IMG/VR virus record: IMGVR_UViG_3300046501_000129
Location: 1-31,501 of that record
From: a virus
Length of the DNA: 31,501 nucleotides
Strand: one strand, 5' to 3'
Below the pieces are notes generated by a model, which made no database searches, was not told the DNA's origin, and saw only the letters and a program-made list of their open reading frames with translations. Both the position numbers and the translations under genes were made by a program. Of the stretch, positions 758 to 30,968 are shown piece after piece (the stretch's first letter is position 1; the number at the start of each line of letters is the position of its first letter).

Positions 758-770
758 TCGCAAGAAATAT

Positions 771-834
771 GAAATAATTTGAAATTAGATGTTGACCTTT
801 CTTTGAACTTACTATAAAAACGAATTATAGAGAG
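771..834 (+). promoter_or_regulatory. Early promoter cassette, copy 1
   Basis: An AT-rich upstream element GAAATAATTTGAAATT (771-786) precedes -35 TTGACC (792-797), a 17-base spacer, -10 TAAAAA (815-820), six bases, then ATAGAGAG (827-834) around the likely transcription start. The same arrangement recurs six more times in the window. It drives the gene starting at 856. Confidence 0.8.
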
Positions 835-855
835 ATTCAGAGAAAGGTTCTCATC

Positions 856-1233
856 ATGACATACGAACTTTCGCAGAAAGACGAACTCATTTCCATCCTC
901 GTAGAACAGTACAAGAGCGCCTACGGCTTCAAGCCACGCGGGGACGCCTACACGCGTCTGACCGAGATGTCCTACGCCGAACTTCAGCAAGAAGCCGAAT
1001 ACATGAACGTCGTTGTCGAGCAGTCGATTAAAGACGACGAAGATCGTGAAAATCGCGCCGTCGTCAAGTTCCTCTCGCGCATTGCCGAAAACCTCGGTCT
1101 CGGTGCCGCCGACGAAGCCACCGCCTATCGTTGGCTGTTGCAGTCCGAAGACATGGCGGATGAGCCCGACCAAGAACACATCGAATACAACTTCGGTCTC
1201 CCCTACGGTTACCTGAAAGGAAGGTATGCATGA
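856..1233 (+). CDS. Early phage protein of unknown function, 125 aa
   Basis: First gene after early promoter copy 1. The start is set by GAAAGG ten bases ahead of the ATG. The protein is acidic and mostly helical in character, with a YKSAYGFKPRG segment near residues 15-25 that resembles a motif in small early proteins of other phages. A central glutamate-rich helix follows (about 40-65), and the end is tyrosine- and glycine-rich (NFGLPYGYLKGRY). There are no membrane segments, cysteine pairs or catalytic motifs. Its stop overlaps the next start by four bases, so the two are translationally coupled. Function unknown; early expression suggests a host-takeover or regulatory role, which is inference. 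Confidence 0.8.
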   Translation: MTYELSQKDELISILVEQYKSAYGFKPRGDAYTRLTEMSYAELQQEAEYMNVVVEQSIKDDEDRENRAVVKFLSRIAENLGLGAADEATAYRWLLQSEDMADEPDQEHIEYNFGLPYGYLKGRYA

Positions 1234-1445
1234 TCGAAGTCGAAACGACTAAATTCTTCGCGGTTCGGCGCGTCCACGGCGGTTGGTACACCACCGATTA
1301 TGGTGCTGGTCTGGTGCCGAATGTGCTGGACGCAGAACGCTTCGGCGCAATCGTTGATGCCATTCAGGTCGCCGACCCGGAGAAGGACGAAATAGTCCAT
1401 GCCGAAGTCACGATCAAAGTTAGCATCGTAGAAAATTCGAAATAA
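1230..1445 (+). CDS. Small early protein of unknown function, 71 aa
   Basis: Begins in an ATGA overlap with the preceding gene and is preceded by GGAAGG. It encodes a soluble 71-residue protein with no recognised domain. The last codons (Asn-Ser-Lys-stop) lie inside the upstream element of the next promoter cassette: TCG AAA TAA is part of the conserved TTCGAAATAATTT. The gene ending at 30889 finishes the same way. Function unknown. Confidence 0.75.
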   Translation: MIEVETTKFFAVRRVHGGWYTTDYGAGLVPNVLDAERFGAIVDAIQVADPEKDEIVHAEVTIKVSIVENSK

Positions 1446-1502
1446 TTTCAAATTCCCTGTTGACATTGTCCGGGGAATTTTTTAAATTAATGGCATAGAG
1501 AG
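1439..1502 (+). promoter_or_regulatory. Early promoter cassette, copy 2
   Basis: Upstream element GAAATAATTTCAAATT (1439-1454), -35 TTGACA (1460-1465), 17-base spacer, -10 TAAATT (1483-1488), six bases, ATAGAGAG (1495-1502). A terminator-like hairpin overlaps it. It drives the genes from 1524 onward. Confidence 0.85.
1450..1483 (+). terminator. Terminator hairpin enclosing the next promoter's -35 box
   Basis: AAATTCCC (1450-1457) pairs with GGGAATTT (1473-1480), and the T-tract runs 1478-1483. The 15-base loop contains TTGACA (1460-1465), the -35 box of early promoter copy 2. It would end transcription of the 856-1445 pair just as the next transcript begins. Confidence 0.6.
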
Positions 1503-1523
1503 AAACAAAGAAAGGCTTCTGCC

Positions 1524-1814
1524 ATGAAATTCGAACGTTCTTCCTTCCTCTACTCCAGCATGTGGTTGACCTACGTCATGCCAGACGGCACCAACCAGTT
1601 CATCGCCCGGTTCCGCGCCGGTAACAAGAACTCCAAAGCTTCCTTCTTGACGTTCCTGATCAACAACTTCTCTGTTGAAGAGTATGTTGAGCGTCTTGAA
1701 GTGCGTCGTGAAGCGCCGTTGACCATCCTCGAAAGCAAGGGCTATGTTAGCCCGAACATGAAAAAAGCCGCCAAGCTTCGTGAGCTTGCCGCCGCCTTCC
1801 GCGTTGCTGCCTAA
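1524..1814 (+). CDS. Small basic early protein of unknown function, 96 aa
   Basis: First gene after early promoter copy 2. GAAAGG precedes the ATG by eight bases, in a leader of the GAAAGGNNTC type shared by many early genes here. The protein is basic, with an N-terminal aromatic/beta-type half (residues 1-45) and a helical C-terminal half rich in Lys, Arg and Ala (60-96). No cysteine motif, membrane segment or enzyme signature is seen. The basic helical end could bind nucleic acid, but that is speculation. Function unknown. Confidence 0.8.
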   Translation: MKFERSSFLYSSMWLTYVMPDGTNQFIARFRAGNKNSKASFLTFLINNFSVEEYVERLEVRREAPLTILESKGYVSPNMKKAAKLRELAAAFRVAA

Positions 1815-1831
1815 TCGAAAGGGCCTCAAAG

Positions 1832-1981
1832 ATGTACGCCACCCAAGAAACCGTCTACCGCGAATATTCGTCGGCTCGCTGGAACTACTGGACCTATGTC
1901 GATGGTCTTCGCTATCCGATCAGCCAGTTCCAGCACGACAAGATGATCTATCAGGGCGCAAAGAGCGTCACGGTCAAGTGA
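1832..1981 (+). CDS. Tiny aromatic-rich early protein, 49 aa
   Basis: A 49-residue frame that begins at ATG 1832 after AAAGGGCCTC, the same initiation leader used at 2852. The product is strikingly aromatic (seven Tyr, three Trp) and has no hydrophobic stretch long enough for a membrane helix. It sits 17 bases after the previous stop and 11 before the next start, in the same direction. Function unknown; support comes from the initiation site and tight packing. Confidence 0.65.
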   Translation: MYATQETVYREYSSARWNYWTYVDGLRYPISQFQHDKMIYQGAKSVTVK

Positions 1982-1992
1982 AGGGGCCTCTC

Positions 1993-2187
1993 ATGAAGAT
2001 CAAAGAAATCCTTAACCGGCTTGAGCGGTCCATCGTGAACCAAGGGCGCATTGTCGATTGGGAAAACTTGAGAGACATGGTCAATAATGCGACCGGTTCT
2101 GAACTACCAGCGTCAAAGCTCGACACGGCGACACAACAGCTCGTCAACCGGCTTCACAAAAAAGCCGACTATCTCCTGAAGAGATAA
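1993..2187 (+). CDS. Small helical early protein of unknown function, 64 aa
   Basis: The ATG at 1993 follows AAGGGGCCTCTC, another copy of the shared early initiation leader; the frame is open further upstream but that part overlaps the 1524 and 1832 genes. The 64-residue product looks entirely helical and amphipathic, with basic ends (MKIKEILNRLERS and LHKKADYLLKR). Last gene of the transcript from early promoter copy 2, just ahead of copy 3. Function unknown. Confidence 0.7.
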   Translation: MKIKEILNRLERSIVNQGRIVDWENLRDMVNNATGSELPASKLDTATQQLVNRLHKKADYLLKR

Positions 2188-2190
2188 TTC

Positions 2191-2254
2191 GAAATAATTT
2201 GAAATTTCCTCTTGACCATAATTCGTTTTGGTTCTATGTTCTAATCATAGAGAG
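2191..2254 (+). promoter_or_regulatory. Early promoter cassette, copy 3
   Basis: Upstream element GAAATAATTTGAAATT (2191-2206), -35 TTGACC (2212-2217), 17-base spacer with AATTCGTT, -10 TATGTT (2235-2240), CTAATC, then ATAGAGAGAAACGA from 2247. Copy 7 (30883-30946) has the same bases from the end of the -10 through AAACGA. Confidence 0.85.
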
Positions 2255-2272
2255 AAACGAGAGACGCGAGAC

Positions 2273-2371
2273 GTGCTTCCCCTCCTGAAGAAAAAGCTTT
2301 TGTTTGTAGTCTACCCGATCTTCTCGATTGAAGATATCGTAACAGAGATCGTCTCGCTGATTGCCTTCTAA
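2273..2371 (+). CDS. Possible 32-aa hydrophobic leader peptide
   Basis: A GTG-initiated frame of 32 residues lies in the otherwise long leader between promoter copy 3 and the gene at 2397. The product begins with basic LLKKK and is then mostly hydrophobic (Leu, Val, Ile, Phe), like a micro membrane peptide. GAGACGCGAG upstream is only a weak ribosome site. It could be a real small peptide, a translated leader, or chance. Low confidence. Confidence 0.3.
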   Translation: MLPLLKKKLLFVVYPIFSIEDIVTEIVSLIAF

Positions 2372-2396
2372 CCCAACCGAAAAGAGAGATACCGCC

Positions 2397-2747
2397 ATGG
2401 GCGAATATGTTTACAAAGTCACCGCCAAGACCGTCAAGCTCACAGACGGCACGAAAGCCAACGTTGCCGTGTTCGCCTACAAGCCCTACGGTTGGGATAG
2501 CGACGGCTTGAACGGCAAGATGTACTTCCAGACCGGTTGCCCCGCTGCTGAACGTTTCGTGAAGGGCAAGAACTACACAGGCAAGGTCGTCCTCGGCGGT
2601 CTTAAAGACGGCAAGCTCTATGTCGGTTCGACCGTCGCCAAGAAATGCACAAGAGGCACCCTGACCGGCTACGAATTCGAATTCATAATGGCAGATGCCG
2701 GTGTCCCGGTTAACATGCCAGTCGGCACCAACGTTGCCTTCGTCTAA
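2397..2747 (+). CDS. Early protein of unknown function, 116 aa
   Basis: The ATG at 2397 has AAAGAGAGA about eight bases upstream; twelve upstream codons in the same frame lack a good start. The protein is Lys/Gly/Val-rich with regularly alternating hydrophobic positions (YKVTAKTVKLTDGTKANVAVF, GKVVLGGLKDGKLYVGS), which suggests an all-beta fold. Two cysteines (in TGCPAA and KKCTRG) are not in a zinc-binding arrangement. It is transcribed from early promoter copy 3. No family recognised; function unknown. Confidence 0.8.
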   Translation: MGEYVYKVTAKTVKLTDGTKANVAVFAYKPYGWDSDGLNGKMYFQTGCPAAERFVKGKNYTGKVVLGGLKDGKLYVGSTVAKKCTRGTLTGYEFEFIMADAGVPVNMPVGTNVAFV

Positions 2748-2851
2748 CCCCAAATTGTTGCTCGTACCCGCCACATGTTTGTGGTTGGGTGCCAGCAATC
2801 TTGCCGAAAGCATCTAGGCATAATACGTCTAACCCAAGAAAGGGCCTCAAC

Positions 2852-3094
2852 ATGAAATTCCCAAAATACGTTCTTAGTGCTTCCGGCAGTGTCACAGCAC
2901 CGCACCTCGATATCATTCTTCGTTCCGATGACCATGAACTGGCGATAGAACATGCGAAGGAGATCGCCGGTCGCCTCTTTGAGGTTGGTTACTTCGCCTT
3001 TGACGTGTTTGAAGTCAGCCCCGATGGTGACAAGTTCAATGTCGGACTTCGCGTCGAGCGACCGGCTCCGGTAGTCATCGTTTGCAAGCGATGA
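2852..3094 (+). CDS. Small early protein of unknown function, 80 aa
   Basis: The ATG at 2852 is preceded by AAAGGGCCTC, the shared early initiation leader. The product alternates beta-type segments with a central helix (HELAIEHAKEIAGRLFEVG, about 28-46), compatible with a small alpha/beta domain. Its stop overlaps the next start (ATGA at 3091). Bases 2748-2851 upstream hold no clear gene; CATAATAC near 2820 resembles a -10 box but has no convincing -35. Function unknown. Confidence 0.75.
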   Translation: MKFPKYVLSASGSVTAPHLDIILRSDDHELAIEHAKEIAGRLFEVGYFAFDVFEVSPDGDKFNVGLRVERPAPVVIVCKR

Positions 3095-3192
3095 CAATGG
3101 AGATGATCTTACAAGCTGGTGGCGGGGCTTTGATCTTCGCCATGATGGTTGCGTTGATGGTGATCGCCGTCCACAACGAAATGAAAGGTTAA
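3091..3192 (+). CDS. Single-span membrane microprotein, 33 aa
   Basis: Starts in an ATGA overlap with the gene before and ends one base inside the terminator stem. The product has a glycine-containing N-terminus and one hydrophobic span of about 20 residues (GALIFAMMVALMVIAVH), with a short polar tail NEMKG. It is probably an inner-membrane microprotein. Coupling and position as last gene of the transcript support it; function unknown. Confidence 0.6.
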   Translation: MTMEMILQAGGGALIFAMMVALMVIAVHNEMKG

Positions 3193-3219
3193 ACCCGGGT
3201 TCATCGCCCGGGTTTTTTT
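3191..3219 (+). terminator. Strong intrinsic terminator between convergent early operons
   Basis: AAACCCGGG (3191-3199) pairs with CCCGGGTTT (3207-3215) around loop TTCATCG, and seven T run 3213-3219. The loop holds TCA, which on the minus strand is the TGA stop of the convergent gene 3201-3392. On the minus strand only a short T-run follows, so it may work weakly in that direction. Confidence 0.9.
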
Positions 3220-3392
3220 GTATCAATCTTTTCGATCAGTATCCGGGCATCGGCTTCGGTGTTGCAGATCGCCACCTCATTCCTGAACCATTGCGGGGCA
3301 CCAAACATGCCGGTGTTCCAGACCTGAGAGACGACCTTGACCTTACCGTTCCACGGCTCGATTTCGTAGGTAACGGTTCCTAGCTCGGTCAA
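3201..3392 (-). CDS. Small early protein of unknown function, 63 aa (TTG start)
   Basis: Last gene of the minus-strand operon. The chosen start is TTG at 3392, overlapping the previous gene's TGA in TTGA and preceded by AGAAGGA; a longer reading from 3458 would overlap the upstream gene heavily. The product is beta-rich and tryptophan-containing (TVTYEIEPWNGKVKVVSQVW) with an acidic/basic helix at the end. Its stop codon lies in the loop of the terminator shared with the plus-strand operon. Function unknown. Confidence 0.6.
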   Translation of the reverse strand: MTELGTVTYEIEPWNGKVKVVSQVWNTGMFGAPQWFRNEVAICNTEADARILIEKIDTKKPGR

Positions 3393-15096: not shown

Positions 15097-15218
15097 TCCG
15101 ACTGATTCTTTTAACCATCAGTTATAATTATATTTTCAAGCGGTTACCCTGATTATATCACGTTTGGTAAGGTTGTCAAGCGTTAATTTCAATTATTCAA
15201 ATTTATTTTTGAAAGCAC

Positions 15219-15247
15219 TTGACACAACCCTTTGTTTTCATTATAAT
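15219..15247 (+). promoter_or_regulatory. Consensus sigma70-type promoter for gene 55
   Basis: TTGACA (15219-15224), 17 bases, TATAAT (15242-15247): all twelve consensus positions match. AT-rich sequence upstream (15181-15210) could act as an UP element. It lacks the ATAGAG start motif of the early cassettes. The rest of 15097-15218 shows only AT-rich DNA and a second weak TTGTCA-type match. Confidence 0.85.
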
Positions 15248-16044: not shown

Positions 16045-17105
16045 CCAAGGTAGCCATCATTACTGACACACATTTCGGGGCGCGCAATGATGGTCCGGAC
16101 ATTATGGAGAACCAGAAACGGTTCTATACCGACGTGTTCTTCCCGGAACTAGAGCGCAACAAGGTCACCCATGTTCTGCATGGCGGCGATCTGGTGGACC
16201 GACGCAAGTTTGTCAACTTCAAGACCGCCTACGAACTCGAAACGACGCTGATGAAGCCACTGTTCAATGGTGGATACGAAACCCACATCATCGCGGGCAA
16301 CCATGACGTTTCGTATAAGGACACGAACCGGATCAATGCGCTGGATATCCTCTATCGATACGCACCATCGGATAAGCTGAAGATTTACGACAATGACCCA
16401 ACGGTCGTTGGTATAGGCGGGGTTGACTTCCTCCTGACACCGTGGCTCTGCGATGAGAACCGGGAAAGTAGTCTGAAGACGATTGCCGAAAGTCAGGCAT
16501 CCGTGGTGCTAGGTCACTTTGAAATTACCGGCTTTGAGATGGATGGCGGACAGATTTGCGTTCATGGTCTGGACAAATCAATTTTTGGAAAATTCGATTC
16601 TGTCTGGTCTGGACACTTCCATAATCCGTCCGAATATGCTAATATCAAATATCTTGGCGCACCCTACGAGATGACATGGTCAGACTACAACGGCAAGCGC
16701 GGTTTCCACATCTTCGACACCGACACCCGGGAATTGCAGTTCATCCAGAACCCGTTCCGGATGTTCCACAAAATCTACTATGACGACACCGAAATGTCGA
16801 TTGACGACGTTCAGGCTTTGGACGTTTCGACCATTGCCGGTAAGGCGATCAAGCTGATGGTGCGGCGCAAGAACAACCCTTACATCTTCGACATCCTGCT
16901 TGACAAGATCGCCGAAGCAGGCGCGCTCGACGTGAAGATCATTGATGAAACCATGCGGATCGTCCATGACGAAGCACAGGTGATCGATGAAGCCGAAGAC
17001 ACCCCCACAATCATCAAGAAGTATGTTGAGACCATCGAAGTCAAGGCGGACAAGGCTCGCGTCAACGACCTGTTGCAAAACCTTTACAAGGAAGCGTTCC
17101 AATGA
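16041..17105 (+). CDS. 47: Recombination endonuclease subunit gp47 (Mre11-like)
   Basis: 354 residues (T4: 339), TTG start overlapping the previous stop. Metallophosphoesterase motifs are intact: ITDTHFG (Asp9, His11), HGGDLVDRR (Asp50), AGNHD (Asn87, His88), then GHFEITG and SGHFHN. With gp46 it forms the phage Mre11-Rad50 complex, which resects double-strand ends for recombination-dependent replication and host DNA degradation. It overlaps the next start by four bases. The gene order 55-47-46 is as in T4. Confidence 0.95.
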   Translation: MTKVAIITDTHFGARNDGPDIMENQKRFYTDVFFPELERNKVTHVLHGGDLVDRRKFVNFKTAYELETTLMKPLFNGGYETHIIAGNHDVSYKDTNRINALDILYRYAPSDKLKIYDNDPTVVGIGGVDFLLTPWLCDENRESSLKTIAESQASVVLGHFEITGFEMDGGQICVHGLDKSIFGKFDSVWSGHFHNPSEYANIKYLGAPYEMTWSDYNGKRGFHIFDTDTRELQFIQNPFRMFHKIYYDDTEMSIDDVQALDVSTIAGKAIKLMVRRKNNPYIFDILLDKIAEAGALDVKIIDETMRIVHDEAQVIDEAEDTPTIIKKYVETIEVKADKARVNDLLQNLYKEAFQ

Positions 17106-29748: not shown

Positions 29749-29753
29749 TAATT

Positions 29754-29818
29754 CAAAATAATTTCGAATTCCCCGTTGACAACGACGGGGAATTTTTCTA
29801 TGTTTAAAGCATAGAGAG
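29754..29818 (+). promoter_or_regulatory. Early promoter cassette, copy 6
   Basis: Upstream element CAAAATAATTTCGAATT, -35 TTGACA (29776-29781), 17-base spacer, -10 TATGTT (29799-29804), TAAAGC, ATAGAGAGAAACGAA from 29811. It begins the second early region. Confidence 0.88.
29767..29797 (+). terminator. Terminator hairpin with the next promoter's -35 in its loop
   Basis: AATTCCCCG (29767-29775) pairs perfectly with CGGGGAATT (29786-29794); five T run 29793-29797. The ten-base loop TTGACAACGA begins with the -35 box TTGACA of early promoter copy 6. Same design as at 1450-1483. Confidence 0.75.
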
Positions 29819-29838
29819 AAACGAAGAGAGAGACGAAG

Positions 29839-30091: not shown

Positions 30092-30334
30092 ATGCCGACC
30101 CCAAGCGCATCCATGATCGAAGCCATCCTCAACATGTCTGCCGAAGGCAAGACCGCTGCTGAGATCGCCGAAGAACTGTACATCTCCGAATGCGATAGCC
30201 TTGCGGCTGATGCCGAAGACGATAGCGATGAAGCAATCTCCCGCCGCTACGGTATCAGTGAAGACGACCGTTATGACAGTCGCGGTTGCGAATTGCTGCC
30301 TCGCCTCAACGATGCCGGTGAACCCAACTGGTAA
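30092..30334 (+). CDS. Small acidic early protein of unknown function, 80 aa
   Basis: ATG at 30092 follows GAAAGGTTCTCC, the shared early initiation leader; upstream codons in the frame overlap the previous gene. The product is very acidic. It carries a segment resembling a helix-turn-helix opening (GKTAAEIAEELYISE, about 19-33), then an Asp/Glu-rich region and CELLPRL. HTH assignment is tentative. Its TAA lies at the first bases of the promoter remnant that follows. Confidence 0.72.
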   Translation: MPTPSASMIEAILNMSAEGKTAAEIAEELYISECDSLAADAEDDSDEAISRRYGISEDDRYDSRGCELLPRLNDAGEPNW

Positions 30335-30350
30335 TAATTTGAAATTCCCT
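30333..30350 (+). promoter_or_regulatory. Remnant of an early promoter cassette (no -35/-10)
   Basis: AATAATTTGAAATTCCCT is identical to 30885-30902 of promoter copy 7, but the sequence then jumps straight to GAGAAAGG, the ribosome site of the next gene. The -35, -10 and start motif are missing, as if deleted internally. Confidence 0.75.
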
Positions 30351-30365
30351 GAGAAAGGCTCTCCG

Positions 30366-30620
30366 ATGACCAAGACACTTCCTCCGATCACCAACGACGA
30401 AAAAGCTTTGATCCTCCCATTCATCAAGGAGTGCTTCGGTGGTCCCGTCGATTTAGAAAACGGATTCATCTACTACAAGCAACCGGGCAAACAGAACGCC
30501 TACCCTGTCGGTCACTACGGCATCGCCACGGTTCCAGACTTTTACAACATGATCTATGCTAGCGATGTGACTGGCGATTCGGATGCCCTGATCGTCGCCC
30601 TAGAGAGGAATTTGAAATGA
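30366..30620 (+). CDS. Early protein of unknown function, 84 aa, paralogue A
   Basis: ATG at 30366 after GAAAGGCTCTCC. It shares a clear layout with the next gene: LPPI near the start, a helix ending in F(I)(K/N)xCF, PVD, IYYK, (Y/F)PVGxYG(I/V), then the near-identical YASDVTGDSD(A/V)LIVA. No catalytic motif recognised. Start of the following gene lies in its stop (ATGA). Function unknown; the pair is a tandem duplication. Confidence 0.78.
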   Translation: MTKTLPPITNDEKALILPFIKECFGGPVDLENGFIYYKQPGKQNAYPVGHYGIATVPDFYNMIYASDVTGDSDALIVALERNLK

Positions 30621-30889
30621 CCTACTACAAGCTTCCTCCGATCCGCCCCAACGAAATTGACGCGTTGCTGCCCCACATCAACAAGTGTTTCATGTGTCCT
30701 GTCGATATGTGTGACGGGGCGATATACTACAAAGGCGGCGAGTTTCCTGTCGGCTACTACGGCGTCTCCGACAATCCCGAAATCCACAATTGCGTTTATG
30801 CCAGTGATGTGACCGGCGACTCGGACGTTCTGATCGTCGCCTTTCATCGCCTTGCCCGGAAGGATGCCTTCCCAAAAAATTCGAAATAA
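30617..30889 (+). CDS. Early protein of unknown function, 90 aa, paralogue B
   Basis: Starts four bases inside paralogue A. Conserved with A from LPPI to LIVA, including YASDVTGDSD at about 56-65; differs by three extra cysteines (CFMC, DMC and NC) that could bind metal, and by a basic end RLARKDAFPKNSK. The final Asn-Ser-Lys-stop is encoded by the upstream element of promoter copy 7, as at 1445. Function unknown. Confidence 0.78.
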   Translation: MTYYKLPPIRPNEIDALLPHINKCFMCPVDMCDGAIYYKGGEFPVGYYGVSDNPEIHNCVYASDVTGDSDVLIVAFHRLARKDAFPKNSK

Positions 30890-30946
30890 TTTGAAATTCC
30901 CTCTTGACTGGAATCGGAATTCGTTCTAATTTCTAATCATAGAGAG
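30883..30946 (+). promoter_or_regulatory. Early promoter cassette, copy 7
   Basis: GAAATAATTTGAAATT (30883-30898), -35 TTGACT (30904-30909), 17-base spacer with GAATTCGTTC, -10 TAATTT (30927-30932), CTAATC, ATAGAGAGAAACGA from 30939. It overlaps the end of paralogue B and drives gene 30969. Confidence 0.87.
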
Positions 30947-30968
30947 AAACGAAGAAAGAGAGATTGTC

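Follow-up and report, generated by a model that had tools for sequence, protein, structure and literature searches.

The window, by which we mean the whole 31,501-nt stretch of DNA analysed, belongs to a T4-type virus related to the Sinorhizobium phages phiN3 and phiM12; its major capsid protein is 90% identical to that of phiN3 and matches thousands of T4-type records. It contains two hairpins with a T-tract, at 1450-1480 and 29766-29795, each of which encloses the TTGACA hexamer of a promoter-like sequence.

The first copy follows ORF 1230-1445, which has a phiN3 ortholog (39% at the amino-acid level) and whose TAA stop codon (1443-1445) falls within the AT-rich, UP-like block AATTCGAAATAATTTCAAATTCCC (1434..1457, + strand). 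In the predicted terminator hairpin (1450..1480, + strand, from folding), the arm AAATTCCCTG (1450-1459) pairs with CGGGGAATTT (1471-1480), and above a TT bulge the GAC (1462-1464) of the enclosed -35 box TTGACA (1460..1465, +) pairs with a GTC of the spacer (1468-1470). The T-tract (1478..1483, +) runs into the -10 box TAAATT (1483..1488, +), as the initial annotation had described. The transcript arriving from upstream is predicted to end at about 1480-1485, and transcription from the promoter would be expected to start at about 1494-1497, where a conserved leader start, CATAGAGAGAAAC (1494..1506, +), is found. The first gene behind this promoter (1524..1814, +; 96 aa) has no assigned function, and its phiN3 ortholog (64% at the amino-acid level) is likewise preceded by a hairpin-bearing promoter.

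The second copy has the same order of parts on the + strand: a UP-like block (29750..29774), a predicted terminator hairpin recovered both by folding and by a terminator scan (29766..29795), a T-tract (29793..29797), the -10 box TATGTT (29799..29804) and the leader start CATAGAGAGAAAC (29810..29822). Its 13-bp stem is formed by GAATTCCCCGTTG (29766-29778) and CGACGGGGAATTT (29783-29795) and closed by an ACAA tetraloop, so that TTG of the -35 box TTGACA (29776..29781, +) is base-paired and ACA lies in the loop. The -35 to -10 spacing is 17 in both copies; RNA folding assigned the first hairpin -12.8 kcal/mol (z -2.9) and the second -19.4 kcal/mol (z -5.5). Both terminator-promoter elements of the initial annotation are thus present where it had placed them, including the recurrence at 29754-29818 with its hairpin, TTGACA, T-tract and -10 box, and shuffling the sequence never reproduced the pattern. 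Its statement that the -35 box sits in the loop holds in that the hexamer is enclosed by the hairpin, but part of it belongs to the stem (GAC paired in the first copy, TTG in the second).

No known RNA families were found in the window. At 15152-15247 it also carries a divergent pair of promoter-like sites, both with the perfect hexamers TTGACA and TATAAT, spaced by 16 on the - strand and 17 on the + strand, which lie outside the family described below.

A promoter cassette family with and without the hairpin

What the initial annotation had overlooked is that the window has at least five cassettes of one family, and that the two elements (-35 boxes at 1460 and 29776) are the only ones among them with the hairpin. 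Using a motif model in which the spacer was masked, and which was therefore blind to it, we found cassettes that consist of AATTCGAAATAATTTSAAATTCCC, two bases, TTGAC, a 17-base spacer, TA(T)nTT and then CATAGAGAGAAACGA, all with the UP-like block. There are 5 in the window (-35 boxes at 792, 1460, 2212, 29776 and 30904), 28 in phiN3 and 23 in phiM12; phiM7 has 20, and two metagenomic fragments have several. The same search of the reversed phiN3 genome returned no cassettes, and a search that permitted spacings of 16-18 chose 17 in every clear copy. The IMG/VR fragments G002, G003 and G004 were excluded as independent evidence because their cassettes are nearly identical to those of the window itself. 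In phiN3, cassettes occupy short gaps between genes of the same strand, just downstream of a stop codon.

The other three cassettes of the window, all on the + strand, have the -35 sequences TTGACC at 792 (767..839) and TTGACC at 2212 (2186..2258), both without a hairpin, and TTGACT at 30904 (30878..30951), without a stable hairpin. At 30331..30368 (+) a remnant is found in which the UP-like block is fused directly to the ribosome-site-like end GAGAAAGG and the promoter core is absent; a second remnant without promoter core lies in G001 near 16867, and both look like deletion products.

Counted across the related phages, 12 of the 45 distinct cassettes place a hairpin around the -35 box, with folding energies between -12.8 and -20.9 kcal/mol and z-scores between -4.3 and -8.0 relative to shuffled spacers. 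This bears out the earlier remark that the design is not a single coincidence; the share of cassettes with a hairpin is roughly one fifth to one quarter. The remaining 33 have nothing comparable at this place except a weaker candidate, phiN3 156865, and a separate terminator just upstream is rare among them. In most hairpin copies the TTG pairs with CAG or CGA of the spacer and the loop is ACAN. The two classes also differ in sequence, with the CCC arm in 12/12 hairpin copies against 6/33 others (p 6e-7), a perfect TTGACA in 12/12 against 10/33 and TAT at the -10 box in 11/12 against 8/33; paralogous copies are related and not independent, so that such p-values overstate the difference and are descriptive only. 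Two cassettes, phiN3 9209 (-) and phiM12 7358 (-), have a different hairpin of 14 pairs with a T-tract that encloses the -10 and not the -35 box, and resemble in this two promoters of phage RB49. Since a single genome contains both hairpin and hairpin-less copies, the family provides a natural test set for the effect of a terminator within a promoter.

Co-variation of the arms and alternative explanations

The initial annotation had proposed comparing relatives for co-variation of the arms, and in both orthologs and paralogs the two arms do change together while the promoter is kept. The pairs at stem positions -1 to -10 are all formed in 11 of 11 copies, position -2 being C-G, T-G, T-A or G-C and position -7 T-A or A-T, with wobble pairs at -2 (T-G, 4/11) and at -10 (G-T, 4/11). 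Two orthologous comparisons are available. The cassettes L089 3243 and phiN3 162181 both stand behind a ribonucleotide reductase gene (alignment 1045-3298, matching L089's own reductase gene and cassette), and they differ at -2 (C-G vs T-A) and at -7 (A-T vs T-A) with pairing kept in both; the cassettes at window 1460 and phiN3 40396, upstream of the same gene, differ at -2 (T-G vs G-C), again with pairing kept. The changes at -2 and -7 amount to few events. This pattern indicates that pairing of the arms has probably been under selection.

Symmetric co-variation would also be expected of a DNA dyad, and the UP-like block is itself an imperfect 21-bp dyad, as if a dimeric regulator bound around the -35 box to control the promoter and the T-tract were incidental. 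The wobble pairs at -2 and -10, however, preserve pairing in RNA and break a dyad in DNA; the register shifts by one base from copy to copy, the loop is asymmetric, the T-tract always follows, and the hairpin is missing from 33 of the 45 cassettes of this family. The wobble pairs and the sliding register, together with the T-tract, therefore speak for an RNA terminator and against a DNA operator, which we regard as quite unlikely. Accident is extremely improbable: the promoter consensus supplies AATTCCC, the 5' arm overlapping the conserved upstream block of the family, and a few spacers might happen to be complementary to it, but the 12 copies lie 4-8 sd beyond spacer shuffles, orthologs keep the hairpin through changes in both arms, the CCC arm decays where the 3' arm is absent, and five random simulations of phiN3 size yielded about 1 bracketing hairpin against 6 in phiN3.

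The cassettes might also serve recombination, as has been proposed for the promoter-early stem-loops (PeSLs) of T4-type phages, with repeats homogenised by exchange, early genes shuffled and termination secondary. They are indeed highly repeated and dispersed, gene order near the 1460 cassette differs from that of phiN3 with the cassette still before the same gene, and the two core-less remnants would fit such a role. Compensatory changes, on the other hand, are unexplained by exchange alone, and ends of phiN3/phiM12 alignment blocks fall within 150 bases of cassettes in 3 of 88 cases, with about 3.5 expected from a simple coverage estimate; breakpoints are thus not enriched at cassettes between phiN3 and phiM12, and a shuffling role of the PeSL kind is unsupported for that pair. 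We consider recombination as the main function very unlikely. A terminator hairpin around the -35 box of the next promoter, as read by the initial annotation, is the best explanation of the sequence pattern.

A model for overlapping termination and initiation

We put at roughly 0.78 the probability that the elements are composite terminator-promoters of T4-type phages, with termination, early initiation and insulation as their likely functions. A host-type (sigma-70-like) early promoter, in which TTGACA follows an AT-rich block and is separated from TATnTT by a 17-base spacer, would share its sequence with an RNA hairpin followed by U's; one arm would come from the bases before the -35 box (AATTCCC...), the other from the spacer's 3' half (...GGGGAATTTTT). 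The hairpin would form when RNA polymerase reads in from the upstream gene, and the incoming RNA would end in the spacer, between the -35 and -10 boxes. RNA from the promoter itself would start downstream of the hairpin and be made without it, so that the terminator would act on incoming transcription only. Attenuation of the promoter's own transcript was considered and rejected, the hairpin being upstream of the expected start.

A stretch of about 60 bases may in this manner close the RNA of one early unit and open the next, the likely benefit being that neighbouring early units are insulated within little space and the promoter is shielded from read-through. We infer the early timing from the sigma-70-like sequence alone. 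The hairpin at 1460 has only moderate stability, and its stem starts 4 nt past the TAA that ends ORF 1230-1445; a ribosome terminating there could block it, and given this short distance, translation might modulate termination at 1460.

Bacterial counterparts and known phage systems

The exact sequence of the element had no match in bacterial genomes. When the outer stem was left free, a search for the element's geometry yielded 40 loci in bacteria, mostly from Oscillospiraceae and other Clostridia; their arms differ. In 16 of 18 tested contigs the S10 ribosomal-protein leader RF03136 lies just downstream, and the hairpin is found in 4 of 29 S10 promoters of one family, two of the four having been identified without using the pattern. 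The free pair positions of the bacterial loci show co-variation above the shuffled level, with 184 of 252 cells paired against 159 expected and a maximum of 174 in shuffles, a test limited by the fixed pattern and by the relatedness of some loci. The S10 promoters of some Oscillospiraceae resemble the window's elements in having a hairpin around TTGACA, a paired TTG, a T-tract and a -10 box at 17; they differ in their unrelated sequence and in belonging to a bacterial operon with the S10-Clostridia leader RF03136 next, and are presumably convergent. At the S10 loci (L099, L093, L096, L098, L110, L111, L114, L115, L118, L123, L125, L126, L127 and L130) the leader starts about 20-45 bases past the -10 box and the upstream genes vary. 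At L119:1008-1139, from a Lachnoclostridium MAG, a hairpin bracketing the -35 box lies directly upstream of a tRNA-Leu gene.

The layout has apparently evolved more than once, since it appears independently, with different stems, in Emdodecavirus, in the Vibrio phage KVP40 and in the S10 operons of Oscillospiraceae. For bacterial polymerase, retention after termination and reinitiation have been shown in vitro (PMC6978380, PMC11347151). A -35 box within a terminator stem might accordingly be a general convergent device of bacteria and phages, selected for recycling of polymerase and reinitiation on the next promoter and not merely for saving space; this is speculative and, in our view, unlikely. 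Bacterial S10 promoters, which share the layout, offer a natural setting in which the recycling idea can be tested.

Among phages, the elements are to be compared with the PeSLs, for which the original papers are reportedly those of Arbiol (2010) and Comeau (2014). Two further papers (PMC4503421, PMC3950731) describe PeSLs as motifs of T4-type phages in which promoter and terminator are combined. The window's elements share with them a T4-type phage genome, a sigma-70-like promoter (TTGACA-17-TATnTT, with the timing presumed from sequence), a predicted stem-loop terminator combined with the promoter (hairpin and T-tract, with co-varying arms) and many dispersed intergenic copies (28 cassettes in phiN3, 23 in phiM12). 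The Emdodecavirus members phiM12, phiM7 and phiN3 have the same cassette family and the same hairpin class, of which the window has its own copies, and the window's capsid protein is 90% identical to those of all three; none of the papers searched describes these elements in Emdodecavirus. The papers searched on overlapping terminator-promoter elements, which treat the PeSLs at second hand, contain no earlier description of the geometry.

A uniform scan for hairpins bracketing the -35 box gave 2 in the window, 3 in G001, 6 in phiN3 (one weak), 5 in phiM12, 5 in phiM7 and 3 in KVP40, and none in T4. The coliphage RB49 resembles the window's phage in its many repeated strong early promoters of PeSL-like type, some with terminators, but the same scan found no hairpin bracketing the -35 box there, 13 being upstream of it and 2 around the -10 box; RB49 places its hairpins before the -35 box, within the spacer or across the -10 box, a pattern that the window's elements do not share. 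At 121736, 122881, 123294, 158969 and other positions of RB49 (NC_005066) the 17 bases between the -35 and -10 boxes form a near-perfect hairpin of their own, GGGGATC...GATCCCC, without a T-tract (TTGACAggggatcggtgatccccTATAAT).

KVP40, by contrast with RB49, has a sigma-70-like promoter with a hairpin that brackets a partly paired -35 hexamer (aaaagggTTGACTacggtcaaccctttcttgTATTAT at 121377, and two further copies), and the design is therefore not unique to the window's phage. Its stem GGGTTGAC/GTCAACCC, spacing of 18 and weaker T-tract are its own, against AATTCCC/GGGAATT and a spacing of 17 in the window. The co-variation of the arms and the position of the -35 box within the stem put the composite promoter-terminator class on firmer ground, and, with the PeSLs taken as other papers describe them, the window's elements appear to be of the PeSL kind with a KVP40-like geometry.
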